Shown: positions 26,708-41,864 of the stretch, one piece after another
Numbering within the stretch: position 1 is the first letter of the stretch
Layout of the letters: every line of letters begins with the position of its first letter
NCBI GenBank assembly: GCA_027307335.1
Contig: DAHUXD010000033.1
Location: forward strand, 1-64,000
DNA length: 64,000 nt
Reading direction: 5' to 3'
DNA from: Acidobacteriota bacterium
GTDB taxonomy: Bacteria; Acidobacteriota; Thermoanaerobaculia; UBA5066; Gp7-AA6
Notes under the pieces: model-generated
The model's input: only the letters and a program-made list of their open reading frames with translations
Told to the model about the DNA's origin: nothing
Databases searched by the model: none
Translations under genes and position numbers: made by a program

Positions 26708-27115
26708 ATGGAGAACGTCGAAAACAAGCCCGAGACCCCCGACCACCTCACGCGCCCCGAGGCGATCGCGATGCTCCGCGCGAAGCTCGTGAAGCTGACC
26801 GACGCGGACCACTGCGTCTGCACGGTCGCGCAGCGCCTGGGCCTCCCCTGCCAGGGCTTCGCCTCGCTGCCCGACAAGGAGTTCAAGCAGCGCTTCGCCT
26901 GGATCGCGGAGAAGCGCCCGAGCGCCTCCCGCGAGGAGATGAACGAGCTCGCGAACCTCTACTTGCTCGGCCGCCAGGAGGCGACGGGCGCCGCAATCGC
27001 CTGCGACGTCGAGACCCGCGAGCACGACCTGTGCGGCGGCTGGAACAGCTTCGACAACGAGACGCTCGAGAAGTTCTACGGGAACGTGTTCGGCCGGCCC
27101 GTCAAGATCGGCTGA
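26708..27115 (+). CDS. Hypothetical protein, 135 aa, partly duplicated downstream
   Basis: ATG 26708 follows AGGGAG. The protein is mostly helical and hydrophilic, with cysteines at ADHCVCTVAQRLGLPCQGF and later CD, LCGGW; I recognise no family. Its 3' half plus the following leader is found again, broken, at 30668-30830, so an ancestral duplication included this gene together with the cytochrome leader. It is 270 bp upstream of the 42-heme cytochrome gene. A regulatory or accessory role for the cytochrome locus is possible but not shown. Confidence 0.65.
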   Translation: MENVENKPETPDHLTRPEAIAMLRAKLVKLTDADHCVCTVAQRLGLPCQGFASLPDKEFKQRFAWIAEKRPSASREEMNELANLYLLGRQEATGAAIACDVETREHDLCGGWNSFDNETLEKFYGNVFGRPVKIG

Positions 27116-27325
27116 AAACCGGCGCGAGCCGCGGCCCGCGGCGCGAATCGCTCAAACAATCCGAATCGCCCACAACGGGACTCGTCTGGTGCGGCACCAT
27201 GCCACCCGGCACCAGGCCCCATCGACCCGTAAAACTTCTGGACAAAGAAAACGCGCGGATTGACAAGGGTTTCTGAGCACTCCCCGCCCCCCCGCGGCGA
27301 CCCGCAATCGAACGCAAAAAAGGCG

Positions 27326-27399
27326 CCGAATTGGTGACTTTGCATCAGATCGGTGACCCCCTTGCGTCCCTATGCTGCGACTCAAATGAGCCGTTTCCC
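27326..27399 (+). promoter_or_regulatory. Conserved leader of the 42-heme cytochrome gene (copy A)
   Basis: This block, from AAGGCGCCG through GGTGACTTTGCATCAG and TATGCTGCGA to the first codons, is nearly identical to the block at 31033-31115 in front of the NHL gene. No Shine-Dalgarno sequence is visible before the ATG at 27386, and TATGCT lies 10 bp upstream of it, so a leaderless or very short transcript is possible. The role is inferred only from conservation. Confidence 0.5.
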
Positions 27400-30300
27400 G
27401 CAGCAGGGCTCCAGGGCGACGCAGCCATATAAGAGGACCGGATTCGTCGCCGCTGCGCTGGCTTTTCTCGCCGCCGCGTTCCTGCTCCCGGCGAGCGCCA
27501 CCGCGAATCCCAAGATCATCTCGAAGAGCTGCATCGAGTGCCACGCACCGGTGCTGAAGGAAGCATCGAAGAAGTTCGTTCACGCTCCGTTTAAGGACGA
27601 GAAGAACTGCGAGTCCTGCCACAAGCGCCACGGCGTCGTCGGCGCGCTCGTGCTGAAGGAAGAAGAGCCGGCGCTCTGTCTCTCGTGCCACCCGAAGGAA
27701 AACGAGACGTTGAAGCAGGCGCACGTCCACGCGCCGTTCAAGGGCACCTGCACCTCCTGCCACTCGCCGCACTCCTCCGACTTCAAGGGACTCCTCAAGG
27801 CGCAGGGCAGCCAGGCGTGCCTCTCCTGCCACAAGACGGACTCGTTCACGCGCGCGAACGTCCACGCGCCGGCCGCCGCCGACTGCCTGACCTGCCACGC
27901 GCCGCACGCGAGCGCGCAGCCGGCGCTCCTGCTCCAGCCTCAGGGCGAGCTCTGTCAGAGCTGCCATAAGGCCGGCGGCAGCGCGAAGGCGCCGGCGCAC
28001 GCGGGCTTCTCCGTCGAGGGCGCGACATGCACGTCGTGCCACACGCCGCACTCCTCCGACGAGAAGACGCTGCTGCGCAAGGTCGTCCACCCGCCCGCGA
28101 CCGACTGCTCGACGTGCCACAAACCGGCCGCCGCCGGAAAGAAGCTCGAGCTCACGGCCGCCGAGCCGGACCTCTGCTTCTCCTGCCACTCGGACCGCCA
28201 GGACGACATGAAGAAGAAGGTCGTGCACGAGGCGTTCAAGGCCGGCACGTGCACCACGTGCCACACGCCGCACGCGTCCGACCAGAAGTCGCTGCTCGCG
28301 TCGAGCCAGAAGGACCTCTGCCTCACCTGCCACGACGACGTCGCGAAGCAGGTCGCCGGCAAGAACCCGCACAAGCCCGCCGCGCAGGGCGAGTGCACGA
28401 GCTGCCACACGCCGCACGCGTCGGCGAACGCGAAGCTCCTCAAGGCCGAGGGCGCGGCGCTCTGCGAGACCTGCCACCCGAAGATCAAGGAAGCGCTCGC
28501 CGCGAAGAACGTGCACCCACCCGCGGCCTCCGGCGACTGCACGAGCTGCCACTCGCCCCACGGCGGCGACGTGCCGAAGCTCCTCGCGCAGGCGGGCGCC
28601 GAGACCTGCTTCTCGTGCCACTCCGACCAGAAGAAGGAGTTCGCGAAGGCGTTCGTGCACGGGCCGGTGTCCGAAGGCCAGTGCGCCAAGTGCCACGACC
28701 CGCACGGCAGCGCGCAGGCGAAGTTCCTCGTCAAGCCGGCCGACCAGCTCTGCTTCACCTGCCATGCCGACATGAAGGCCCGGCGCGAGACGCCCGGCGG
28801 CAAGATGCACAGCCCTTTCGCCGACGGCTCCTGCGACACCTGCCACACCCCGCACGCGAGCAGCCGCTCGCGCCTGCTCAAGGACGCGACCGCGAATCTC
28901 TGCGGCGCCTGCCACGAGGACATCTCGGGCAACATGGCGAAGGCAGTCTCGACGCACCAGCCCGTGAAGGCCGGCGCCTGCACCTCCTGCCACGACCCGC
29001 ACGGCTCGAAGAACCCGGCCTTCCTGAAGATGACCGGCGCGCAGCTCTGCTACACGTGCCACGACAAGCTCCAGGCGCGTTTGAAGGCCCGCAAGGCGAT
29101 CGTCCACAAGCCCGTCCTCGACGGCAAGTGCACCGAGTGCCACGCCGGCCACTCCTCCGCACAGCCGGGTCTCCTGCTGAAGCCGGTCGCCCAGCTCTGC
29201 GGCAACTGCCACAAGGTCGAGGAGCCGAAGCTCCTCCAGGCGCACAAGGGCTACTCGGTCGAGAAGGCGGACTGCCTCACCTGCCACGACCCCCACGTCT
29301 CGAACAAGAAGGGCCTCTTCTCGACCGTCGCGCATCCGCCCTTCGCCGACGGCGACTGCGCGTCCTGCCACAAGCCGCCCGCGCCCGCCCCCGCGCCGCC
29401 GGCGGCGCCGCAGCTCGCGTCGAAGACCTCCGAGCTGTGCGCCGCGTGCCACTCCGACTTCTTCGACAGGTTCGCGAAGGCGGCCTGGTCGCACCCGCCG
29501 GCGAAGCAGGGCGACTGCACGTCGTGCCACTCGCCGCACGCGTCGTCGCAGAAGCACCTCGTCCTGAAGTCGGGCGCGGCGGTCTGCGTGAGCTGCCATC
29601 CGACGATCAAGGCCGACCTCGAGAAGAAGGCCGTGCACACGCCGGTGAAGAACGGTGAGTGCGTCAAGTGCCACGACCCGCACACGTCGGACAACGGCCG
29701 CGGCCTGATCAAGAAGACCCCGGAGCTCTGCTTCTCGTGCCACGCGCCGGAGAAGGCGCTCGCGAGCGCGAAGACGGTCCACTCCCCCTTCGCCAGGGGC
29801 AACTGCAACGCGTGCCACGACCCGCACGCCTCGGGCAACGCGAACCAGCTCCTCCTCCCGGCGAGCCAGCTCTGCGCGAAGTGCCACGACGTGAAGAACC
29901 CGAAGACCTCCGAGAAGCACAAGGGCCTGGTGACCGCCGGCTCCGACTGCACGTCCTGCCACAACCCGCACGGCTCCGAGCAGGCCGGCCTCATCCGCTC
30001 GAAGCCGCACGAGGTCTTCGCGACGTGCAACCGCTGCCACACGCCGAGCTCCGGCACGCCGCAGCAGATGGCCGCGAAGGCGACCGAGCTCTGCGAGCGC
30101 TGCCATTCCGCCGTCAAGCTCGCCGCGCAGAAGCCCGACGCGCACAAGGCCCTCGAGAAGGGCTGCACCACGTGCCACACGCCGCACGCCTCGGATCTCG
30201 CCGGCCTCGTCAAGGGCCGCGACCAGCGCGCGGTCTGCCTCTCCTGCCACACCGACATCCAGAAGCAGATGGCGAGCGCGCTGACGACGCACCCGCTGAA

Positions 30301-30634
30301 GGCCGGCGGCTGCCCGATCTGCCACGCGCCGCACCAGTCCGACCAGAAGCCCCTGCTGAAGGCCTCGAAGACGGATCTCTGCAAGGACTGCCACAAGGGC
30401 CACTCGCAGTTCGGCCACCCGTTCGGCCCGGGCGTCATCGACCCGCGGACCGGCCAGACGATGACGTGCCTCTCCTGCCACAACCCGCATGGCACGCAGT
30501 TCGTCAGCATCCTGATCGACAGCCCGAGCCGCGCGCTCTGCATCCAGTGCCACTCGGACACGCCCGAGGAGGAGAAGCGGCACGGCGTCATCAAGAGCAA
30601 GAACGCCGCCGCGCCTCCGGAGGAGGAGCCGTGA
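27386..30634 (+). CDS. Giant multiheme cytochrome c with 42 CxxCH motifs, 1082 aa
   Basis: By my count the protein holds 42 CxxCH heme-binding motifs in 1082 residues, about one per 25 residues. After a signal peptide (residues 1-40, ending ASATANPK) the chain is a string of doubled-CxxCH domains: each repeat has a CTSCHxPHAS-type heme, a LLK stretch, a LCxxCH heme and an HxP linker. Alternating PH and H residues supply the distal ligands expected for bis-histidine hemes. There is no transmembrane segment or lipobox after the signal peptide, so it is periplasmic or extracellular. A proline-rich break at about residue 670 divides it. It should act as a long electron conductor; the neighbours suggest extracellular electron transfer. 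Confidence 0.93.
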   Translation: MSRFPQQGSRATQPYKRTGFVAAALAFLAAAFLLPASATANPKIISKSCIECHAPVLKEASKKFVHAPFKDEKNCESCHKRHGVVGALVLKEEEPALCLSCHPKENETLKQAHVHAPFKGTCTSCHSPHSSDFKGLLKAQGSQACLSCHKTDSFTRANVHAPAAADCLTCHAPHASAQPALLLQPQGELCQSCHKAGGSAKAPAHAGFSVEGATCTSCHTPHSSDEKTLLRKVVHPPATDCSTCHKPAAAGKKLELTAAEPDLCFSCHSDRQDDMKKKVVHEAFKAGTCTTCHTPHASDQKSLLASSQKDLCLTCHDDVAKQVAGKNPHKPAAQGECTSCHTPHASANAKLLKAEGAALCETCHPKIKEALAAKNVHPPAASGDCTSCHSPHGGDVPKLLAQAGAETCFSCHSDQKKEFAKAFVHGPVSEGQCAKCHDPHGSAQAKFLVKPADQLCFTCHADMKARRETPGGKMHSPFADGSCDTCHTPHASSRSRLLKDATANLCGACHEDISGNMAKAVSTHQPVKAGACTSCHDPHGSKNPAFLKMTGAQLCYTCHDKLQARLKARKAIVHKPVLDGKCTECHAGHSSAQPGLLLKPVAQLCGNCHKVEEPKLLQAHKGYSVEKADCLTCHDPHVSNKKGLFSTVAHPPFADGDCASCHKPPAPAPAPPAAPQLASKTSELCAACHSDFFDRFAKAAWSHPPAKQGDCTSCHSPHASSQKHLVLKSGAAVCVSCHPTIKADLEKKAVHTPVKNGECVKCHDPHTSDNGRGLIKKTPELCFSCHAPEKALASAKTVHSPFARGNCNACHDPHASGNANQLLLPASQLCAKCHDVKNPKTSEKHKGLVTAGSDCTSCHNPHGSEQAGLIRSKPHEVFATCNRCHTPSSGTPQQMAAKATELCERCHSAVKLAAQKPDAHKALEKGCTTCHTPHASDLAGLVKGRDQRAVCLSCHTDIQKQMASALTTHPLKAGGCPICHAPHQSDQKPLLKASKTDLCKDCHKGHSQFGHPFGPGVIDPRTGQTMTCLSCHNPHGTQFVSILIDSPSRALCIQCHSDTPEEEKRHGVIKSKNAAAPPEEEP

Positions 30635-31101
30635 AGCGCACCGCGGCATAGCGAGGGAAGACAAGACCCAGGGCTTCGCGTCCGCGGCCCGACGAGGAAT
30701 TCCAGCAGCGCTTCGCCGGATCGCGGAGAAGCGCCCGAGCGTCTGCCGCGGTATGAACGGGCTCGCGAATCTCCGCCTGCAGAAGCCCTTCGGCAACGGG
30801 CTCCGCCGCCGCCTCAACGTTCGGCTGAGAACCGGCGCGAGGCGCATCGAGCGGCGCAAAGCGTGCACAGCGCCCGAATCGCTCCATCCCGGGTCGGCGT
30901 CGTGCGGCACCATGCCGGGCCGCACCCTGTCCGGCGGCAATTCGTAGAAGTTCTGGACACCGGGAAAGCACGGTCTGAAGCGGGTTTTAAGGCTCTCCCT
31001 GCGATCCTCCGGGGACTCGGAATCGCCTCGAAAAGAGGCGCCGAAATTGGTGACTTTGCATCAGTTCGGCACCGCTCCCGCGTCTCTATGCTGCGATTCA
31101 A
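30635..31101. other. Non-coding gap: duplicated leader region between cytochrome and NHL genes
   Basis: This 467-bp stretch holds no intact gene. It contains the pseudogene remnant (30668-30830), a diverged copy of the leader at 27116-27385, a CGCCTC-GAAAA-GAGGCG hairpin at about 31023-31039, and then the strongly conserved block that runs into the NHL gene start. Confidence 0.75.
30668..30830 (+). pseudogene. Broken partial copy of the 135-aa gene at 26708
   Basis: The sequence from CCAGGGCTTCGC onward matches 26851-27120, including GCGCTTCGCC, GATCGCGGAGAAGCGCCCGAGCG and the end CGGCTGA followed by the same downstream leader, but it has small indels, an about 100-bp loss and no start or intact frame. 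It is what remains of the upstream gene after the duplication that placed a second leader before the NHL gene. Confidence 0.75.
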
Positions 31102-31115
31102 ATGAGCCGTTTCCC
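31033..31115 (+). promoter_or_regulatory. Conserved leader of the NHL-hexaheme operon (copy B)
   Basis: The second copy of the block described at 27326-27399. The stretches GGTGACTTTGCATCAG, TATGCTGCGA and AATGAGCCGTTTCCC are kept, while spacers have changed, which suggests selection on the block rather than recent copying alone. Again there is no clear Shine-Dalgarno before ATG 31102. It probably coordinates expression of both cytochrome transcription units. Confidence 0.5.
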
Positions 31116-32250
31116 GGAGAAACATCCCGCGGCGCAAGCCCCATACAAGAAGATGGGAATCGCCGGGGCCGCGCTCATTCCCGCGCTGCTTCTCGCCGCG
31201 GCGGCGCTGCCCGCGCAGTACAACCCCTCGCCGGCCGCGCCGACCTCCGAGGCCCGGCAGTTCCACATCAAGCCCGTCACGATCTTCGGCGAGCACCTCT
31301 ACGAGGGCACGTTCGCGAACCCGAGCGGCGTCGCCTTCGACGCGACGGCGAACGAGGTCTGGGTGGCCGACACGCAGAACAATCTCGTCGGCGCGTTCAC
31401 GCCGGACGGCGTGCCGCTCTTCGCGTTCGGCAGCGACGACATGGTCGAGCCCGTCCGGATCGCGACCGACGCGAACGGCCGCCTCTACGTCCTCGACAAC
31501 GACCGCACGACGGTCAAGGTGTACAGCTACAAGGGCGACCCGCTCGCGCACCTCGCGCTGCCGGGTCTCGGCGAGAAGCCGATCATCGGCACGATCGCGA
31601 TGGACGCCGACGGCAACCTCTACGTCGGCGAGAACGAGAGCTGCCAGGTCCTCGTGTACGGCCCGGACGGGAAGCCCCGCCAGCGCTTCGGCAGCTGCGG
31701 CGTCGACGAGGGCGAGTTCCAGTCGATCACCGGCATCGCGGTGGACGCGACGCGCATCGTCGTGACCGACGCGCAGGGCGTCTCGGTCCAGGTGTTCGAC
31801 AAGCACGGCGACTTCGTCCGCGGCTGGGGCCGGCACGACATGGGCCGCGAGAACTTCTCGTTCCCGTCCTCGGTCGCCCTGCTCTCGGACGGCCGCGTCG
31901 TCGTGACCGACGCGCTCCGGCACGAGATCAAGTTCTTCGACGCGGAGGGCCACTACCTCGACCGGTTCGGCGGCATCGGCTGGCGGCTCGGCCAGATCGC
32001 CTTCCCCGCCGGGATCGCCGCCGATCCCAACGGCCGGCTCTACGTCCTCGAGAAAGGCAATCAACGCGTGCAGGCCTTCGTCGTCGTCGCGGGCGACTTC
32101 CCGCCCGACGCGATGGACACGAACAGAAACAACGGCCCGAAGGGCCAGGCCTCGGTGGGAAAGGAGGTGCCCCGGATTTCGTCACCATCTGGATCCAACT
32201 CCGGTTCTTCTCCCGGTTCACCACAGCAACCGCTTGGAGGAAACAGATGA
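31102..32250 (+). CDS. Exported NHL-repeat beta-propeller protein, 382 aa
   Basis: The first residues (MSRFPEKHPAAQAPYKK) and signal peptide are homologous to those of the 42-heme cytochrome. The mature part is a six-bladed NHL propeller: NPSGVAFDATANEVWVAD, EPVRIATDANGRLYVLD, IIGTIAMDADGNLYVGE, SITGIAVDATRIVVTDA, FPSSVALLSDGRVVVTDA and FPAGIAADPNGRLYVLE. A Ser/Gly/Pro-rich tail follows. It overlaps the hexaheme cytochrome start by 4 bp, so the two are translationally coupled. NHL proteins often sit beside multiheme cytochrome genes; a scaffolding or maturation role is likely but unproven. Confidence 0.88.
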   Translation: MSRFPEKHPAAQAPYKKMGIAGAALIPALLLAAAALPAQYNPSPAAPTSEARQFHIKPVTIFGEHLYEGTFANPSGVAFDATANEVWVADTQNNLVGAFTPDGVPLFAFGSDDMVEPVRIATDANGRLYVLDNDRTTVKVYSYKGDPLAHLALPGLGEKPIIGTIAMDADGNLYVGENESCQVLVYGPDGKPRQRFGSCGVDEGEFQSITGIAVDATRIVVTDAQGVSVQVFDKHGDFVRGWGRHDMGRENFSFPSSVALLSDGRVVVTDALRHEIKFFDAEGHYLDRFGGIGWRLGQIAFPAGIAADPNGRLYVLEKGNQRVQAFVVVAGDFPPDAMDTNRNNGPKGQASVGKEVPRISSPSGSNSGSSPGSPQQPLGGNR

Positions 32251-33428
32251 CTCGCAAAGTACTTCTGGGTCTCGCCATCTTCGCCGCGCTGGCCCTGCCG
32301 GCCATCGCCGGTGAGTACCACTCCGGCGCCAACCTCGTGTGCGCCGACTGTCACACGGCCCACTTCAGCATGCAGCACAACTGGGACGGCACGACGCCGG
32401 TCCCGGGTGCGCCGAACGGCACCGGCCCCGACAACACGATGAACTGGCTCTCCGCGACGGGCCCGAACGCCTACCTGCTCAAGGCCCCCGCGAACCAGCT
32501 GTGCCTCATGTGCCATGACGGCCAGACGTTCGCCCCCGACGTGTACGCCCTGAACACCAACGCGGCCAGCTACCCGCAGGGCCGCGCCGCCGGCGGCATC
32601 AACGATCCGGCGGCCGGCACTCCGTACGACACGTGGAAGGGCCACACCCTCTCCTCGACGGCGACGCCTCCGGGCTGGAACCCGGCGTCCCTCGGCGCCA
32701 CGCTGCCCCCGACCTGGTACGACCCGACCCAGGGCCTCGAGTGCATCAACTGCCACGCGCAGCACGGCCCGGCGGCCTCGTTCCGCAACCTCGGCTCCTA
32801 CAGCCTCGGCGGCTTCGCCGCGCAGGCGCGTCCGACGTACGTCATCAGCACCACGGACGACACGACCAAGGACGTCTGGATCAACATCCCGGCCGGCTAC
32901 GTCGCCGGAACCGGCAGCGCGGCCACCTTCGGTCCCTACTATGACCAGAGCAACCTCTTCTACAACCGTCACGACGCGCTCAACGGCACCACGAACACGT
33001 CCAACAAGCTGGACACCTTCTGCGCGACCTGCCACGGCAACTTCCACGGCGGCACGGGCGACGCGCAGATCGGCGGCGGCACGGCCGGTGCGGCGGCGGA
33101 CGGTTTCATCCGTCACCCGACCTCGATTCAGGTCATCGGCTCCGCGACGGCGGGCGGCCACTCCTCGCTGACCCGGTACGTCGCCAACACGGCCAAGGTC
33201 CCGGTGTACAGCCAGGCGCAGGCCGCGGGCGGCTACACGGACGCCACTCCCGGATGCGTCTCCTGCCACAAGGCCCACGGCAACCAGAATCCCTTCGGTC
33301 TCTTCTACCTGGGCCGCACTCCTTCGACTCCGATCGACGAGCAGGGAGCCTGGCAGGCGGGTGAGGTCCCGAACGACCAGAACGGCACCCGCAACCTGTG
33401 TGGCCAGTGCCACGGACAGGGCGCGTAA
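32247..33428 (+). CDS. Hexaheme cytochrome c, OmcS-like (candidate cytochrome filament subunit), 393 aa
   Basis: A signal peptide (to about residue 21) precedes six CxxCH motifs: CADCH, CLMCH, CINCH, CATCH, CVSCH and CGQCH. By eye the order and surrounding marks follow OmcS of Geobacter sulfurreducens: mature start YHSG before the first heme, a KGH after the second, an RHP after the fourth, CHKAHG at the fifth and the last heme at the extreme C-terminus, with long Gly/Ser/Thr-rich loops between. OmcS (also six hemes) polymerises into conductive extracellular filaments. GGAGG precedes the ATG. The similarity is a judgement by eye, and filament formation is inference. Confidence 0.85.
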   Translation: MTRKVLLGLAIFAALALPAIAGEYHSGANLVCADCHTAHFSMQHNWDGTTPVPGAPNGTGPDNTMNWLSATGPNAYLLKAPANQLCLMCHDGQTFAPDVYALNTNAASYPQGRAAGGINDPAAGTPYDTWKGHTLSSTATPPGWNPASLGATLPPTWYDPTQGLECINCHAQHGPAASFRNLGSYSLGGFAAQARPTYVISTTDDTTKDVWINIPAGYVAGTGSAATFGPYYDQSNLFYNRHDALNGTTNTSNKLDTFCATCHGNFHGGTGDAQIGGGTAGAAADGFIRHPTSIQVIGSATAGGHSSLTRYVANTAKVPVYSQAQAAGGYTDATPGCVSCHKAHGNQNPFGLFYLGRTPSTPIDEQGAWQAGEVPNDQNGTRNLCGQCHGQGA

Positions 33429-33447
33429 TCGCTTCCGTATGCGTTAC

Positions 33448-33476
33448 GGGGAGAGGCTGCCCGGCAGCCTCTCCCC
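33448..33476 (+). terminator. Strong terminator hairpin after the hexaheme cytochrome
   Basis: GGGGAGAGGCTGCC (33448-33461) pairs perfectly with GGCAGCCTCTCCCC (33463-33476), and is followed by CCCTCTTTCCCTTCC, a weak pyrimidine tract. It lies 19 bp after the stop codon and should end most transcription of the NHL-hexaheme unit before the barrel gene. Confidence 0.85.
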
Positions 33477-33695
33477 CCTCTTTCCCTTCCTGAGGGCCTG
33501 ACCCCATGAGGCTCGATTCACAAGTACCGCTCGGAGTGTTCGCTCCCGCGAGCGCTTTGAGTCCTTTGATTCCTGCGTTCGATTCGGAAATCTTCGGATG
33601 GGTTTCCGAAGTCTTGCCCACGAGGACGCCGACGCGCACCCGCTCTTTCGTGGGTGGACGCCGGTCTCCTCACGCCAGCGACCGGTGAAGCGACG
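33477..33695 (+). promoter_or_regulatory. Leader of the barrel gene with a hairpin and a repeat arm
   Basis: No gene is seen here. A single GGCCTGACCCC arm of the palindromic repeat family is at 33494-33504. TTCGGAAA and TTTCCGAA (about 33574-33602) form an 8-bp stem with a 12-base loop some 95 bp before the barrel start, which could be an attenuator or simply a structured leader. Confidence 0.4.
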
Positions 33696-35879
33696 ATGCG
33701 CGCGAACCGGAGCAGACAGGCGGCCTGGTTCGGCGCCGCCGTCACCCTCCTCTTCCTGCTCGCCGCGTCCGCTTCCGGCCAGCAGGACCTCACCGGCCGC
33801 GCGATCCTCGGCTACACCTTCTTCGGCGACCCGAGCTTCTCGACGGACGGCTTCAACCAGCTCTACGAGGTCGGCTACCAGCGGCAGGTCTCCGAGCCGC
33901 TCCGGTTCCGCCTCTTCTTCCGCGGACTCGGCAACCGCGGGATGCAGGACTTCGCCGGGTCGCAGACGCAGTCCTCGTACTGGCAGCTCCAGCCGCTCGC
34001 GGAGGTGTACTACATCCTCCCCTTCTTCTCGATCGTCGGCCGGTACGACTACTCGACCGAGCTGTCGCACTACGGGGACCAGCCCCAGAGCACGCGCATG
34101 GACCAGCGGGCCTTCGAGACGCTGAACTGGGCGCCGGAGGCGCTGCCGAGCGTGCTCCTCCACGGCGAGCAGTACCGGGACACGGAGTCGAGCGCCTCGA
34201 TCGACGAGGCGCAGTCGCTCGTGAGCGCCGCCGTCTCGTACGGCTGGCGAGGCCTGACGATCGGCGGATACGGGCTGTACCGCGTGCTCGACCTCTACGA
34301 GACGGGCTTCCACGGCACGGAGGCCGACGCCCAGGCCCTCGGCAAGTACGAGAGGACCTTCTTCGACGGCCGCGCCTCCGTCAACGCCAACGCGACCGTG
34401 GGCATCCAGAGGCTCGAGCAGGCGTCCGGCTCGGTCTCGGGCGCCTCGGTCCCGAACCAGGCCACCATCTCGTCCGCCGCGTACGCCTACGACGAGACGC
34501 CGCTCGACTCGCGGGACGCGACGGGCGTGCCCGCGCCGGCCCTGCTCGACGGCGACGTCCGGGCGAGCGCGGGGATCTCGCTCGGGCCCGACGGCTCGTC
34601 CTTCCAGAACCTCACGCTCGACATGGCCCGCTACCTCGTCCTCGACACGTTCCGGGTGTTCGTGCGCGACCGGACCGGGGAACCGGTGCCCATCGGCGGC
34701 CTCGTGAGCTGGGACGTGTACGTGACGGACAACGGGCTCGACTGGAGGCTGGTCGGGAGCGCCGACTCCCGCTTCATCGCGTCCCTCTCCGCCTACGAGA
34801 TCACGTTTCCGGAAACCCGCTCGCGTTACTTCAAGCTCGTCAGCTTCGGCATCAGCACGCTCGCGACGTACGTGACGGAGGCCCAGGCCTTCTTCCACAC
34901 GGCGCTCGCCGCGAATACCACCAGGGAGACCGACGTCCACTTCCTGAGCGCCATGGTCTCCGCGTCCGGCACCCCGGCGACGTGGCTCAACCTCAGCTAC
35001 AACGGCGTCTTCAACGACTACAAGACGACGAACCCCGACAGCTCCCAGTTCTCCAGCGTGGACAACGACCAGCTCCTCTCCGCGGACTTCATGCCGAGCC
35101 AGGCCTTTGACCTGACGGTGCGCGCCGAGAACCGGACGGTCTCGCCGTCCGAGGGCGCGAAGCAGACCTACCAGACCTACACGGGAATCTTCACGTACCG
35201 GTACAACCCGAACCTCGTCACGACGATCGAAGCCGACCGCGTTCACCAGACCGGCGAAAACCCCGGGGACGTCGTGACGACGACGCTGCGGGCGTCGGAG
35301 TACCTGCGGCTCCTCCCGACGGTGTACTTCCAGCTCGACGGCGGCGTCGCGAACCAGGACCAGGATTTCGGCAACCTCTCCTCGAAGGCCGTGTTCTTCG
35401 ACGGCACCGGCTCGATCCAGCTGACCCAGTCCTGGCTGCTGCAGCTGAACGCCAACTACTCGAAGACCCACTACGAGGGGCCTCTCGCGTCCGTCACGGG
35501 CGGCCTCGACCAGATCGCCTCGCGCTATTACCTGCAGCTCCAGTACCGGCCGAGCGGCGCGGTCAACCTGATGGGCCGCTTCGGCGTCACGACCGTCAAC
35601 GGGACCAGGTTCCAGATCCGGGGCGGCCAGCTCTGGTGGTACCCTCTCGCCGGCGGCACGGTCGGGATCGGCACGATCTACAGCGAGGACGCCGACGTCA
35701 ACGCCGAGTTCCGTCGCTTCCGGACGCTCCAGGTGACGCCGAGCTGGATCCTGAACCCCCACGCGGTTCTGAACCTCAACTACAACCTGCTGCAGCTGCA
35801 CCAGTCCCTGACGCCGACGTCCCCCGGGACCGACACGACGGCGCGGCAGTTCTACGTCACCCTGACCCTCACGCTCTGA
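33696..35879 (+). CDS. Large outer-membrane beta-barrel protein, 727 aa
   Basis: ATG 33696 starts a signal peptide (AAWFGAAVTLLFLLAASASG) followed by amphipathic beta strands over most of the chain, with dense aromatic alternation (YWQLQPLAEVYYILPFFSIVG, YYLQLQYRPSG, LWWYPLAGG, FYVTLTLTL at the C-terminus). Residues about 265-425 form a different insert (SWDVYVTDNGLDWRLVGS, ETRSRYFKLVSF) that looks like a discoidin-type beta-sandwich domain. No heme motif is present. Position between the hexaheme cytochrome and CsgG/LpoB-like proteins suggests a porin or export channel for the cytochromes. I do not recognise the family. Confidence 0.75.
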   Translation: MRANRSRQAAWFGAAVTLLFLLAASASGQQDLTGRAILGYTFFGDPSFSTDGFNQLYEVGYQRQVSEPLRFRLFFRGLGNRGMQDFAGSQTQSSYWQLQPLAEVYYILPFFSIVGRYDYSTELSHYGDQPQSTRMDQRAFETLNWAPEALPSVLLHGEQYRDTESSASIDEAQSLVSAAVSYGWRGLTIGGYGLYRVLDLYETGFHGTEADAQALGKYERTFFDGRASVNANATVGIQRLEQASGSVSGASVPNQATISSAAYAYDETPLDSRDATGVPAPALLDGDVRASAGISLGPDGSSFQNLTLDMARYLVLDTFRVFVRDRTGEPVPIGGLVSWDVYVTDNGLDWRLVGSADSRFIASLSAYEITFPETRSRYFKLVSFGISTLATYVTEAQAFFHTALAANTTRETDVHFLSAMVSASGTPATWLNLSYNGVFNDYKTTNPDSSQFSSVDNDQLLSADFMPSQAFDLTVRAENRTVSPSEGAKQTYQTYTGIFTYRYNPNLVTTIEADRVHQTGENPGDVVTTTLRASEYLRLLPTVYFQLDGGVANQDQDFGNLSSKAVFFDGTGSIQLTQSWLLQLNANYSKTHYEGPLASVTGGLDQIASRYYLQLQYRPSGAVNLMGRFGVTTVNGTRFQIRGGQLWWYPLAGGTVGIGTIYSEDADVNAEFRRFRTLQVTPSWILNPHAVLNLNYNLLQLHQSLTPTSPGTDTTARQFYVTLTLTL

Positions 35880-35895
35880 TGACCAGGAGGATGCA

Positions 35896-36474
35896 ATGAG
35901 ATACCGGCACCAGGTCGTCCTCGGGCTCCTGACGGCGGGCCTCGTCGTCGTCGCCGGCTGCGCGAGCACGAAGACGACGAAGTACGTCCACCCGAACGCG
36001 GACCTCGCGGCGATCAAGCGGGTCGCCGTGCTGCCGTTCGAGAACCTCTCGAGCGACCGGACCGCCGGCGAGAAGGTGCAGAAGCTCTTCCAGACCGAGC
36101 TCCTGGCGCTCGAGGCGTTCGACGTCGTCGAGCCCGGCCAGGTATCCAAGGTGCTGCGCAACGAGCGCATCGACTCGGTCGAGAACCTCGGCTCGGCGGA
36201 CTTGAAGAAGCTCGGCGACGCGCTGAAGGTCCAGGGGCTCTTCCTCGGGTCGGTCGTCGACTACGCCGACACCCGGCTGGGCGCGACGCCCACCCCCGAC
36301 GTGACGATCCAGCTGCGGCTCGTCGAGACGGCGTCCGGCGTGACGGTCTGGTCGGCGAGCCGGACGCGGAGCGGAGCGAACGCCTCGGCGCGGCTCTTCG
36401 GCATCGGCGGCGACTCGCTCACGCAGGCCTCGCGCCAACTGATCAAGGACGAGCTCTCGACCCTGGTGAAGTAG
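35896..36474 (+). CDS. CsgG/LpoB-like lipoprotein, 192 aa
   Basis: AGGAGG lies 6 bp before the ATG. The lipobox VVAGC (Cys22) marks it as a lipoprotein. The mature domain (KRVAVLPFENLSSDRTAGEKVQ, LLALEAFDVVEPGQVSKVL, LGDALKVQGLFLGSVVDY, LRLVETASGVTVWSAS) has the alpha/beta fold shared by CsgG, LpoB and GNA1162-type envelope proteins. CsgG forms the curli export pore; this form lacks the CsgG transmembrane hairpins as far as I can see. It probably works with the barrel gene 16 bp upstream and the larger CsgG-like protein that starts 4 bp downstream. Confidence 0.82.
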   Translation: MRYRHQVVLGLLTAGLVVVAGCASTKTTKYVHPNADLAAIKRVAVLPFENLSSDRTAGEKVQKLFQTELLALEAFDVVEPGQVSKVLRNERIDSVENLGSADLKKLGDALKVQGLFLGSVVDYADTRLGATPTPDVTIQLRLVETASGVTVWSASRTRSGANASARLFGIGGDSLTQASRQLIKDELSTLVK

Positions 36475-36478
36475 AACG

Positions 36479-39409
36479 ATGCCGCTGCCCGGGCTCCTCG
36501 CCGCCGTCCTGGCCCTCGCCGCGCCCTCCGCGGGAGGCGCCTCGACCGTCGCCGTCATGCCGTTCGAGAACCTCTCGGGCGTGCCGGCCGCGCGGGCCGA
36601 GGTGACCGCGGCGGTCCTGAAGCACCTCGAGAGCGCCGGCTACCGGGTCGTCCCGGCCGCTTCCGTCGACGAGTTCGTCGCCGCCGAGCGCCTGCGCTAC
36701 CTCGACTCCCTCTCGAATCCGGAGAGAAAGAAGCTGCTCGAGACGCTCGGGGCCGACGCGGTCGTCCTCGGATCGATCTACAGCTTCCTCGACGGCGGGA
36801 ACGCGATCGTCGCCGCCGCGGCGCGGATGCTGCGCGCCGACGGCAGCGTCGTCTGGTCGTCCGTCGAGGGCCTCTCGGCGCAGGACACCCAGGGCCTCTT
36901 CGGCATCGGGCGCGTACCGACGGTCAGGGCGCTGGCGAACGCCGTCGTCTCGCGGCTGCTGCGCCATCTGCCCCGGCCCGGCCAGGCGGGCTCGATCGCC
37001 GGCGCGAAGGCGAAGCCCTTCGACATTCCGGGGCCCCGGACCTATCGCTCGGCGGCGCTGCCCGAGGATGGACCGATCCTCGTCTGCATTCTCCCGCTCG
37101 CGAACCGCTCCCCCGCCCGCGTGGCGCCCCGGGTCGTCGGCGAGCTGCTCGTGCAGCGTCTCGCCGGGTCGAAACAGCTCCGCGCCGTCGAGTCCGCCGA
37201 CTTCCGCCAGGCGCTCGTCGCGGCCCGCATCCGCGTCATCCGCCTGGGCGACCCGGACGACCTCCGGCACCTCGCCAAGGAGCTCGGAACGAACCTGTTT
37301 CTCCAGGGGACGATCGACGTCTATCAGGACGGATCCACCCAGAACGAGTCGGTGCCGCCCGTGTTCGAGCTGCAGCTGCAGCTCGTCAGCGCGAAGACAG
37401 GCAAGGTCCTGTGGACCGCGAGCCTCGCCCGCAAGGGAACCGACTACCAGGGGCTCCTCGAGCTCGGCGCGATCTCGAACGTCGTGACGCTCGCGGACCA
37501 GGCCATCGCGGAGATCGTCGCTTCCTTCGACCACACCGAGGGGACGGGACGGCACGGGGTCACCGCGACCGTCGTCGCCTCCGACAAGACCTACGACCGC
37601 AGCGAGGCGGCGACGATCACGTCCTGCAAGGTCTCCGGCGCTCCGGCCGCGGACCTCGCCAACCTCCAGTGCGCCGCCGCTGCGGCGTCCTTCGCCGACG
37701 CCAGCGCCGGGACCGGCAAGACCGTCACGGCGACCGGACTGACTCTCTCGGGGAGCGCGGCGAACCGCTACGTCCTCGAGGACGACACGGCCTCGACGAC
37801 GGGGACGATCCGCCCGAAGCCGGTGACCGTATCGGCCGCGGCTTCGGACAAGACGTACGACGGGACGCCCTCGGCGACGATCGCCTCCTGCACGCCGTCC
37901 GGCGTGCTCCCGGCCGATGCGGACGCGGTGGCCTGCGCCGCGGGCAACGCGTCCTTCGCGGACTCCGGCGCCGGCTCCGGGAAGACCGTGAGCGTCGGCG
38001 GGATCACGCTGTCGGGGGCCGCCTCGGGCAACTACGCTCCGTCGTCGACGGCGGTGACGACCACCGCGACGATCCGGCGGAAGCCGGTGACCCCGGAGGT
38101 GAGCGTAGCGAGCAAGACGTACGACGGCACGGTCAGCGCGACCCTCGCCGCCTGCGGGTTCCAGGGCGTGCTCGCCGCGGACGCGAGCGGGACAAGCTGC
38201 CGGGTCGGGGCCGCCGACTTCGGCGACGCTGCGGCCGGCGTGGAGAAACCGGTGACGGTCACCGGGATCGGCATATCGGGACCGGCTTCGGCCAACTACG
38301 TGGTGACGGAAACGCTCGTCGAGACGACGGCCGACATCGTCCCCCGGTCCGTCACGGCGTCCGTCACGGCCGCGGACAAGACCTACGACGGGACCCCGGC
38401 CGCGGCGATTTCGGGATGCCGGCTCACCCGAGTCATCGAGATCGACTCGGGAAAGGTCGAATGCGCCGCCGGCGCGGGTGCTTTCGCCGACCGGAACGCG
38501 GGCGCCGGGAAGACCGTGACGGCTCCCGTCGCGCTCGCCGGAGCCGCGGCGGGCAACTACGTCCTGGCGACTCCAGTCGGGACAACGAACGCGGGCATCA
38601 CGCCGAAGCCGCTCTCCCCCTCGGGGGTGATCGCGCGCGACAAGGTCTACGACGGCACGAACTCGGCGCGCCTGGACCTCGGCGCGGCGACGCTGCCGGG
38701 CGCGGTCGAGGGCGACGACGTCGCGCTCGACGGGAGCCGGGCGATCGCCACCTTCCCGGGCAAGGACGTCGCGGCGAACGAAATCGTGACGGTCTCGGGC
38801 CTGGCGCTCGCCGGTCGCGACGCCGGCAACTACGCCCTCGAGCCGTTCGCCCTGCGCGCGGCGATCGCGCCGCGGCCGGCCGGGCCCCGGATCGCCGCCG
38901 CGAACAAGGTCTACGACGGGACGCGGGCGGCGGAGCTCACCGGCGCCTCGCTCGACGGGGTCCTGGCGGCGGACGCGGAGAGCGTGCGGCTGACGGTCGA
39001 GGCTTCCACCTTCGACACGAAGAACGCCGGCACCGGCCGGACGGTGACGGCGACGAGCCTCTCGCTTTCGGGCGACGCCTCGCGCAACTACTCCGTTCCG
39101 CAGACCGCACGGACGAAGGCGGACATCATGCCGAAGCACGTCACGGGGAGCTTCACGGCGGCCAACAAGCGGTACGACGCGAGCCCGCTCGCGATCGTGC
39201 GCTCCCGGTCTCTGACCGGCGTCATCCCCGGAGACGCGGTGGCGCTCACCGGCGGCCGCGCCCGCTTCGCGGACGCTGCGGTCGGCAGCGAGAAGACCGT
39301 GACGCTCGAAGGCGCGAAGCTGACCGGAGCCGATTCCCGCAACTACGTTCTCGACACCGTCGCGCCGACCACGGCCGACATCACCGCCTCACGACGGGAG
39401 CCTCAATGA
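36479..39409 (+). CDS. Exported CsgG-like protein with seven YDG repeats, 976 aa
   Basis: A signal peptide (residues 1-21) is followed by two CsgG/LpoB-like alpha/beta domains (STVAVMPFENLSGVPAARAE, about 20-165; GPILVCILPLANRSP, about 195-345). From about residue 360 to the end there are seven repeats of about 85 residues, each opening with KTYDGT or a variant (KTYDRS, KTYDGT x3, KVYDGT x2, KRYDAS) and containing GKTVT, LSG and NYVL marks: the YDG domain known from large surface adhesins. The combination of an envelope CsgG-like part and an adhesin-like stalk is unusual. It may hold or display filaments at the surface; this is inference. It overlaps the next gene by 4 bp. Confidence 0.83.
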   Translation: MPLPGLLAAVLALAAPSAGGASTVAVMPFENLSGVPAARAEVTAAVLKHLESAGYRVVPAASVDEFVAAERLRYLDSLSNPERKKLLETLGADAVVLGSIYSFLDGGNAIVAAAARMLRADGSVVWSSVEGLSAQDTQGLFGIGRVPTVRALANAVVSRLLRHLPRPGQAGSIAGAKAKPFDIPGPRTYRSAALPEDGPILVCILPLANRSPARVAPRVVGELLVQRLAGSKQLRAVESADFRQALVAARIRVIRLGDPDDLRHLAKELGTNLFLQGTIDVYQDGSTQNESVPPVFELQLQLVSAKTGKVLWTASLARKGTDYQGLLELGAISNVVTLADQAIAEIVASFDHTEGTGRHGVTATVVASDKTYDRSEAATITSCKVSGAPAADLANLQCAAAAASFADASAGTGKTVTATGLTLSGSAANRYVLEDDTASTTGTIRPKPVTVSAAASDKTYDGTPSATIASCTPSGVLPADADAVACAAGNASFADSGAGSGKTVSVGGITLSGAASGNYAPSSTAVTTTATIRRKPVTPEVSVASKTYDGTVSATLAACGFQGVLAADASGTSCRVGAADFGDAAAGVEKPVTVTGIGISGPASANYVVTETLVETTADIVPRSVTASVTAADKTYDGTPAAAISGCRLTRVIEIDSGKVECAAGAGAFADRNAGAGKTVTAPVALAGAAAGNYVLATPVGTTNAGITPKPLSPSGVIARDKVYDGTNSARLDLGAATLPGAVEGDDVALDGSRAIATFPGKDVAANEIVTVSGLALAGRDAGNYALEPFALRAAIAPRPAGPRIAAANKVYDGTRAAELTGASLDGVLAADAESVRLTVEASTFDTKNAGTGRTVTATSLSLSGDASRNYSVPQTARTKADIMPKHVTGSFTAANKRYDASPLAIVRSRSLTGVIPGDAVALTGGRARFADAAVGSEKTVTLEGAKLTGADSRNYVLDTVAPTTADITASRREPQ

Positions 39410-41022
39410 AACGACTGACTTCCACGACCCTCTTGCTGTCCGCTCTTCTGGCGGGAGGGTGCGCCTCCACCTCGTATCTCGCCAAGGTCAACGACGACAA
39501 GATCACCGGAACGGACCTGAAGGACGAGTTCCAGCGCAAGCACGGCGGCCACCAGAAGTTCCTGCTTGGAGAGTCGGAAACGCGCCAGTTCCTGAACGTC
39601 GTCATCGACGAGAAGCTCCTCATGCAGGAGTCCTATCGGCTCGACCTGGAGTCGATCCCGACGATCCAGAAGGCAGTGGAGGACTACGCCTCGAACCGGG
39701 CGGCCGACCATCTCCTGAAGGTCGAGATCGAGGACAAGGCCGATCCGACGCCCGAGCAGGTGAAGGAAGTGTGGGAGAAGGAGACGACGCTCTTCTACCA
39801 GGGGCGGCAGATCGTCAGCGACACGAAGCAGGAGGCCGACGAGGTCTACATGCAGCTCCTCTTCGGAGCGGACTTCGAGCAACTCGCCCGCGCCTGCTCG
39901 ATCGTGCCCTCATGGATCCAGGGCGGGCGGCTCTCGTGGGCCGGCTGGGGGTCCATGGAGCCGTCCTGGGAGAAAGTGGTCCACTCGCTCGCGCCCGGCG
40001 AGACGAGCGAGGTCTTCGAGGGACCGAAGGGATGGGAGATCTTCCAGCTCGAGCAGATCCAGGGAGCGGAGCGGCCGGACTTCGCGCAGTCCTCCAAGCG
40101 GATCGAGGGAATCCTCAAGAGCCGGATGCTCAAGCAGAGGAAGCAGGAGCTCTCGGACTACCTCTGGACCAAGTACCACGCGAAGCAGGTCCTTCCGCAT
40201 CTCGGCCTTCGCGAGCTCGCCGACGCCATGAACAAGAATCCGGACGGGCCGATCGCCACGTGGGACGGGGGCAGCCTCAGCGTGAAGCAGTTCGTGTCGG
40301 GCCTCGAGCGCAACGACTTCGAAGGCCTGCCGCCGGGCCGCGCCGAGGCCGAGGTGGAGAAGCAGCTCCGGCAGACCGTCAACGCGCCCCTCGCGGTGGT
40401 CGAGGCCCGCGCGCGGGGCTACGAGAAGATCCCGTCGGTGGAGGAAGCGACCAAGGTGCGTCAGGAAGACTTGATGGAGAACGCGCTCTATGCCGACTAC
40501 ATTACCAAGGACGTCGCCGTCAGCGACTCGGAGATCCAGGCCTACTACGAGGCGCACAAGGCCGACTTCATGACACCGGAGAAGCGGCGCGTGTCCCAGA
40601 TCGTCGTTCCGACGAAGGAGGACGCCGAAGCCATCCGGAAGGAGATCGCGGACGGCCAAGCGTTCGAGTCCCTCGTGAGTCGCTCGACCGACGCCGACTC
40701 GGCCAAGAAGAAGGGCGACCTCGGCTGGATCACGGCAAAGGATGCCAAGGGCGAGTTAGACGCGGTCTTCACGCTGGCGAGCGACCAGGTCTCGGCGCCG
40801 ATCCAGTCGAAGTTCGGCTTCCACCTCATCAAGGTCACCGAGATCGTTCCGCCCAAGCCGATGTCGTTCCAACAGGCGAAGCCGCAGATCAAGGAGAAGC
40901 TCCTCGATCAGAAGAAGCGCGAGCAGCGAAAGGTCTGGATCCAGAAGCTCCGCCAGGCCGCCACGATCGAGATCAACAACGCCGGGATCAGCGCGTTCGT
41001 GAAGGCCAACTCGCCTTCGTGA
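39406..41022 (+). CDS. Lipoprotein peptidyl-prolyl isomerase (parvulin/SurA-like), 538 aa
   Basis: The lipobox LLAGGC (Cys19) follows a short signal sequence. A SurA/PpiD-like helical N-domain (LAKVNDDKITGTDLKDEF, FLNVVIDEKLLMQES) leads into a first, divergent parvulin-like region (about 120-225, ADFEQLARACSI, SEVFEGPKGWEIFQLEQ) and a well conserved second one (about 390-475: RRVSQIVVPTKEDAEAIRKE, FESLVSRSTDADSAKKKGDLGWI, APIQSKFGFHLIKVTEI). It should assist folding of exported proteins, here plausibly the proline-rich cytochromes or barrel. The start overlaps the YDG gene by 4 bp. Confidence 0.9.
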   Translation: MKRLTSTTLLLSALLAGGCASTSYLAKVNDDKITGTDLKDEFQRKHGGHQKFLLGESETRQFLNVVIDEKLLMQESYRLDLESIPTIQKAVEDYASNRAADHLLKVEIEDKADPTPEQVKEVWEKETTLFYQGRQIVSDTKQEADEVYMQLLFGADFEQLARACSIVPSWIQGGRLSWAGWGSMEPSWEKVVHSLAPGETSEVFEGPKGWEIFQLEQIQGAERPDFAQSSKRIEGILKSRMLKQRKQELSDYLWTKYHAKQVLPHLGLRELADAMNKNPDGPIATWDGGSLSVKQFVSGLERNDFEGLPPGRAEAEVEKQLRQTVNAPLAVVEARARGYEKIPSVEEATKVRQEDLMENALYADYITKDVAVSDSEIQAYYEAHKADFMTPEKRRVSQIVVPTKEDAEAIRKEIADGQAFESLVSRSTDADSAKKKGDLGWITAKDAKGELDAVFTLASDQVSAPIQSKFGFHLIKVTEIVPPKPMSFQQAKPQIKEKLLDQKKREQRKVWIQKLRQAATIEINNAGISAFVKANSPS

Positions 41023-41054
41023 TCGCTCGAGAACATTCAGAAGGGAGAACGTCC

Positions 41055-41864
41055 ATGAAATTGCCCACCCTCGTCGCCCTGCTCCTGGCCGGAGCCGTTG
41101 CCGGCCTGGCCGTGCCCGCTCCCGCTCCGCAACAGCCGAAACCGGCTTCCGCGAAGGCTCCGGCCCCGGCGCCGCCCGCTGCGGCGCCTTCCGAGGTGAC
41201 CGGCACCGTCGTCGACACGATGGACTCCGGCGGCTACACGTACCTGAAGCTCAAGACCGCGGGCGGCGAGGTCTGGGCGGCCGTGAACAAGGTCGACGTG
41301 AAGAAGGGCTCCACCGCGACCGTCGCGAACGCGATGCTGATGGAAAACTTCGAGAGCAAGACCCTCAACCGCAAGTTCGACAAGATCTACTTCGGCACGC
41401 TCGCCGGGGCCGGATCGCCGGCGGCCGCCGGCGGAGCCCTGCCGCCGGGACACCCCGCCGTCGGCGGCCAGGACGCCGGAGCGGCCGTCGCCGCGCAGCA
41501 CGCCGCCGCCGCCCTGGGCCCGGCCGACGCCGGCCCACCGATCAAGGTCTCGAAAGCGTCCGGCGCGAACGGCCGGACGGTCGCAGAGATCTACGCGCAG
41601 AAAGCGGCGCTGAAGGACAAGACGGTCGTCCTGCACGGCAAGGTCGTGAAGTTCCTTCCCGAGATCATGGGCAAGAACTGGATCCACGTGCGCGACGGCT
41701 CGGGTTCGGTCGCGGACAAGAACGACGACATGACGGTGACGACGAAGGACACGGTCGCCGTGGGGGACGTCGCGACGGTCACCGGGACGGTCCGGCTCGA
41801 CAAGAACTTCGGCGCCGGATACGCCTACCCCGTCATGATCGAGGACGCCAAGGTCACGAAGTGA
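41055..41864 (+). CDS. Exported NrfJ-like / OB-fold protein, 269 aa
   Basis: ATG 41055 follows AAGGGAG. After a signal peptide and an Ala/Pro-rich spacer, residues about 48-120 resemble NrfJ-type proteins (EVTGTVVDTMDSGGYTYLKL, MENFESKTLNRKFDKIYFG); residues about 185-268 form an OB-fold (VVLHGKVVKFLPEIMGKNWIHV, VGDVATVTGTVRLDKNFGAG). NrfJ-like proteins are found with multiheme cytochromes of nitrite reduction but their role is unclear. It closes the cytochrome/envelope cluster. Confidence 0.75.
   Translation: MKLPTLVALLLAGAVAGLAVPAPAPQQPKPASAKAPAPAPPAAAPSEVTGTVVDTMDSGGYTYLKLKTAGGEVWAAVNKVDVKKGSTATVANAMLMENFESKTLNRKFDKIYFGTLAGAGSPAAAGGALPPGHPAVGGQDAGAAVAAQHAAAALGPADAGPPIKVSKASGANGRTVAEIYAQKAALKDKTVVLHGKVVKFLPEIMGKNWIHVRDGSGSVADKNDDMTVTTKDTVAVGDVATVTGTVRLDKNFGAGYAYPVMIEDAKVTK

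Follow-up and report, generated by a model that had tools for sequence, protein, structure and literature searches.

The closest described counterpart of the locus analysed here is the osc cluster (omcS-companion operon) of Geobacter sulfurreducens. In PMC13194489, which cites Shen et al. 2025 (Cell Chem Biol 32:239), folding is attributed to OscH, secretion to OscE, OscF and OscG, and filament morphology to OscD, and oscI and oscJ are equated with GSU2495 and GSU2494. Both of the latter gene products were listed as periplasmic (PMC13194489, PMC9248073), and 26 hemes were reported for GSU2495 (PMC2996986). Geobacter genomes encoding the hexaheme cytochrome GSU2501 all carry the eight-gene block GSU2500-GSU2493, GSU2501-type relatives not being known as wire formers (PMC12977616). 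The KN400 annotation displays a YVTN propeller and the lipoprotein GSU2497 in matching places (PMC3495685), in agreement with the letters E, F and G that we infer from gene order for the barrel, the single CsgG/LpoB-like protein (lpo) and the double one (dlpo). OmcS itself (PDB 6ef8, 6nef) is known as a filament, in which one of the 12 histidine ligands is donated by the neighbouring subunit (PMC6584659).

Gene layout and correspondence with osc clusters

The window (the whole stretch of 64,000 nucleotides analysed here) harbored a cluster of eight genes (27386-41864), all on the + strand and with coding-type codon use, whose positions and overlaps were confirmed as given in the first-pass annotation. 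The cluster opened with a cytochrome of 1082 aa holding 42 CXXCH motifs and a Sec-type signal peptide (27386-30634; 22 Paired_CXXCH stretches, E 4e-226), followed by an NHL beta-propeller (31102-32250; Pfam NHL 6.6e-31), homologous to the propeller that osc clusters encode 5' of omcS, and by an OmcS-type cytochrome with six CXXCH motifs (32247-33428), a candidate nanowire subunit by its homology to OmcS and its conserved histidines. Further downstream were encoded a 727-aa barrel with an inserted domain (33696-35879, OscE-type, with homologues in the same cluster position), a CsgG/LpoB-like lipoprotein (35896-36474, OscF-type), a protein with two LpoB/GNA1162-type domains and seven C-terminal YDG repeats (36479-39409, OscG-type), a lipoprotein parvulin PPIase (39406-41022, OscH-type; Rotamase_2 7.7e-38) and an exported NrfJ/OB-type protein (41055-41864), a recurring osc neighbour with homologues at the same place. 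The NHL and hexaheme genes overlapped by 4 nt, as did those of the YDG protein and the parvulin; the CsgG-like gene lay 16 nt after the barrel gene and 4 nt before the YDG gene, and larger spacers separated the 42-heme from the NHL gene (467 nt) and the hexaheme from the barrel gene (267 nt).

A perfect 13-bp hairpin (33448-33476, + strand, z -4.4) was found just 3' of the hexaheme stop. Of 57 osc clusters, 29 had a hairpin of at least 9 bp at this place, compared with 1 of 57 after shuffling, and in several clusters with two hexahemes the hairpin stood 3' of the first one instead. Low hairpin counts at the other cluster genes are an unfair control, because those genes mostly abut. The hairpin would be terminator-like or mRNA-stabilising, and it may allow an excess of the subunit over its machinery.

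The gene located 5' of the cluster (26708-27115, + strand), encoding a 135-aa protein, was rejected as a member of the system: since its homologues in 7 further genomes of the phylum occurred without any multiheme ORF within ~1.5 kb, it is probably a mere neighbour. A duplicated segment (26865-27403 and 30683-31119) took in the 3' part of this gene, the DNA between the genes and the beginning of the one that follows (MSRFP leader); its copies were 76% identical over 330 bp (27069-27403 / 30781-31119), and the 42-heme and NHL genes therefore have the same upstream region.

When OmcS of G. sulfurreducens, its sequence verified against PDB 6ef8, was used to scan GTDB contigs, 74 loci were obtained, and these were searched with profiles made from the window together with two of its classmates. 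The cluster of G. sulfurreducens was represented in this comparison by relatives, and the scanned loci included C. bremense, L1geo, G. luticola and H2geo, named as holders of the nanowire block in PMC12977616. The order beside OmcS was NHL, OmcS, OscD, barrel, lpo, dlpo, parvulin, 26-heme and 16-heme cytochromes, and it was seen in Geobacter, Geomonas, Anaeromyxobacter, Nitrospirota, Rokubacteria and, partly rearranged, Schekmanbacteria. The NHL profile matched the gene before OmcS in most loci. Both CsgG/LpoB genes were present in 43 of the 48 barrel-matching loci, many of the remainder being cut by contig ends.

In the window, an OmcS/GSU2501-type hexaheme adjoined the block, barrel, lpo, double-lpo and parvulin followed in osc order, and the 26-heme OscI and 16-heme OscJ were present as one fused protein. 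The window thereby shared with the osc cluster of G. sulfurreducens (GSU2504-GSU2493) the NHL protein, the OmcS-type hexaheme, the barrel, the two CsgG/LpoB-like proteins, the parvulin and the OscI and OscJ sequences, but it differed in that OscI and OscJ were fused and relocated upstream of the NHL gene, OscD was missing, OscG carried seven YDG repeats, the hexaheme was single and the OB protein lay directly 3' of the parvulin. OscD, a YVTN-propeller lipoprotein, was not found in the window genome, which displayed generic propeller repeats only, nor in those fused clusters whose contig extended far enough (window, L009, L195); no gene separated hexaheme and barrel in the window, and the OscD profile did not match its NHL protein. 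Because OscD was not found, the locus was considered a variant of osc rather than a canonical osc cluster. In two fused-type clusters, a 9-heme cytochrome that is absent from the window was encoded between hexaheme and barrel, in OscD's place (L008 1796-3229, L009 11303-12586).

Of 396 genomes belonging to the window's phylum, 17 had the barrel according to its profile. In each of the 16 besides the window's, the barrel lay among multiheme cytochromes, and lpo, dlpo and parvulin were also present in 15, the contig of the remaining one ending just past the barrel. The first-pass annotation had stated that its reading would fall if the barrel, CsgG and YDG genes occurred as often without cytochromes; with adjacent multiheme cytochromes in 16 of 16 homologues, the barrel was never found without them in this sample. 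Its claim that the combination is not a described system was mistaken, as the locus corresponds to the osc cluster (PMC13194489 and PMC12977616, both citing Shen et al. 2025). Its core proposal, that a nanowire cytochrome akin to OmcS is encoded together with a dedicated barrel, CsgG-like proteins and a PPIase that would export and fold it, is supported. The system itself is thus known, and what is new here is the OscI-OscJ fusion, the missing OscD and the seven YDG repeats on OscG.

The 42-heme cytochrome, OscI and OscJ

OscI and OscJ held 26 and 16 hemes, respectively, in essentially every complete cluster. Hemes 1-26 of the window protein aligned to OscI at offset 0 with 10 of 10 homologues, and hemes 27-42 aligned to OscJ at offset 26, again with 10 of 10. 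Judged from these alignments, the giant joins OscI (26 hemes) to OscJ (16 hemes), heme for heme in register; the giant cytochrome initially annotated was thus present with its 42 hemes, but not as an extra component, being OscI and OscJ in one gene. In the classmate G026, the OscI part aligned in the same register with 10 of 10 homologues and the OscJ part with 7 of 10 at offset 26, while for the other 3 an offset of 17 was favoured, by a small margin in two of them and a clearer one in the third. A Pro/Ala-rich linker between hemes 26 and 27 (29372-29437, + strand), delimited by comparison with free OscI tails and OscJ heads, occupied the place of the signal peptide of free OscJ, and similar linkers were found in L195 and L196. 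In Geomobilimonas luticola, two neighbouring genes matched residues 20-662 and 681-1058 of the window protein.

In four genomes of the class (G000, G026, G062, G463) a single reading frame encoded exactly 42 hemes, and in seven the 26- and 16-heme genes were separate; a possible fifth fused case (L115) was excluded because an assembly gap cuts it. The window genome harbored no second OscI or OscJ, the 42-heme gene being the sole copy, and the fused gene was located just upstream of the NHL gene wherever the contig sufficed (window, L009, L195). The barrels of the four fused clusters grouped together in a quick tree with long branches (SH-aLRT 100%), so the fusion likely arose once.

A different large cytochrome was displayed by Anaeromyxobacter soli (L049 11487-17576), where an ORF of 2029 aa with 49 CXXCH motifs directly followed an OmcS-type hexaheme, the osc export genes being absent from the stretch examined.

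Hexaheme cytochrome and envelope proteins

The hexaheme was ~24% identical to OmcS (24% over 396 columns) and shared with it six CXXCH motifs in the same order. The six CXXCH histidines and six further histidines aligned with those of OmcS and were kept in 40-41 of 41 sequences, window included; in this alignment, H25, H39, H133, H173, H290 and H344 of the window protein corresponded to OmcS H2, H16, H110, H147, H257 and H335. A profile built from hexahemes of the window's phylum only retrieved OmcS at 2.5e-21 among 261 decoys, displaying full-length homology. A single-sequence PDB search with the hexaheme gave no match; the heme-free AlphaFold model (pLDDT 40) was not used. The conserved histidine set and the profile match support an OmcS-type fold and possibly the formation of filaments.

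No Pfam model matched the barrel above threshold, and its predicted identity as an outer-membrane barrel comes from the AlphaFold model (pLDDT 77), which displayed about 28 strands and an inserted domain around residues 250-400. The OscF-type protein (35896-36474) shared with the CsgG curli channel and LpoB a CsgG-family domain above the Pfam cut-off (1.1e-6; 28.5 bits against a cut-off of 20.8), but it is shorter than CsgG, with a putative pore; it was 53-54% identical to its homologues in L008 and L009. The OscG-type protein instead has two fused domains, which matched LpoB and GNA1162-like rather than CsgG.

Among the components expected to recur as a set beside OmcS-like genes, the barrel, the CsgG-like protein and the parvulin did so, but the YDG repeats did not: OscG homologues of classmates were 373-382 aa long and without YDG, and the seven repeats were unique to the window in this sample. 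An OscG homologue from another phylum (L035 15567-19019, 1150 aa) carried about eight Ig/PKD-like repeats at its N-terminus, at the opposite end from the YDG repeats of the window, and repeat extensions of OscG therefore arose at least twice. The parvulin was 38% identical to its homologues in L008 and L009, and the OB protein was 51% identical to those found at the same place in these two loci, with further homologues in the Geobacter-type L061, L062 and L067.

Proposed electron route and alternative explanations

We consider it very probable that the cluster encodes an osc-type nanowire assembly, in which the hexaheme (32247-33428) would be the building block of an OmcS-like filament, the lipoprotein parvulin would fold the apo- or holo-hexaheme, the barrel and its two CsgG/LpoB-like partners would export or anchor it across the outer membrane, and the 42-heme protein would serve as a periplasmic electron store or conduit charging the filament. 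For such an assembly we infer a polymerising hexaheme, a barrel acting as exit channel and one continuous heme chain in the fused OscI-OscJ; the relay role of the 42-heme protein and the docking of free OscI and OscJ would follow from the fusion. With 42 hemes at the spacing of OmcS (47.5 A per six), the protein would reach over ~33 nm, which is on the order of the width of the periplasm, and it is in principle long enough to cross the cell envelope. Only tentatively can this be carried further, to a single-polypeptide 42-heme wire that spans the periplasm and feeds the filament directly, free OscI and OscJ docking end to end. Under this wire reading, the fixed 26+16 composition implies that OscI and OscJ, where they occur as free proteins in Geobacter and elsewhere, dock in this order and form the same conduit.

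Rather unlikely in our view, the cluster could export the hexaheme as a soluble or surface-bound non-polymer, filaments having arisen in the OmcS branch only. The equivalent of OmcS H16, which we take to be the inter-subunit heme ligand and which aligned with H39 of the window protein, was kept in 40 of 41 sequences, window included, and this argues against a non-polymer. Yet a single hexaheme and no OscD are encoded in the window, and according to PMC12977616 GSU2501, which is not proven to form wires, never occurs without the secretion block, and the block may predate nanowires. The large putative outer-membrane barrel adjoining a DmsE/MtrA-like paired-CXXCH cytochrome also recalls MtrCAB, and barrel and giant cytochrome might form a porin-cytochrome conduit with the hexaheme as outer cytochrome and without any secretion role. 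The 42-heme protein scored with DmsE-family decahemes, and of the top Foldseek matches listed for the barrel, MtrB (6r2q_B) stood far ahead in TM-score (0.42-0.46), with a VIA-align Z of 16.8. However, TonB receptors equalled MtrB by Z, and these matches to generic large barrels were rejected as a family assignment, as was an MtrB identity of the barrel, since MtrB_PioB matched neither the barrel nor any other protein of the genome.

The osc homologues are moreover tied to secretion in Geobacter, no MtrC is encoded in the cluster, and the same genome harbored a separate Mtr-like locus (L010, contig 19, 14000-33900) with decahemes resembling MtrC and MtrA, a probable barrel of 651 aa that MtrB_PioB did not match, proteins carrying 12 and 19 hemes, and a pentaheme of the NapC/NirT type. 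This locus, which a paralogue of the window's 135-aa protein adjoins, is consistent with extracellular respiration, and an MtrCAB-like role of the osc-type cluster appears improbable. The 467 and 267 bp gaps and the hairpin split the cluster and might point to a chance adjacency of genes, but the same gene order recurs across several phyla and we give this explanation practically no credence. The osc-type nanowire assembly remains the reading that we retain, although the low identity of the hexaheme to OmcS, the missing OscD and the GSU2501-type relatives not known as wire formers count against it.

The window's phylum grouped with an NCBI-named Acidobacteria MAG in a RecA tree (support 96/95), which makes this phylum name probable. 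Such an Acidobacteria-like host, and export genes that are strictly linked to cytochromes, provide markers for nanowire makers in genomes. Neither the electron route to extracellular cytochrome nanowires nor their secretion is regarded as resolved (PMC12307469). The OscI-OscJ fusion occurs in nature and is conserved heme for heme; it brings genetic evidence that both cytochromes work as one chain, and it gives a testable prediction about a working nanowire system, that of Geobacter.
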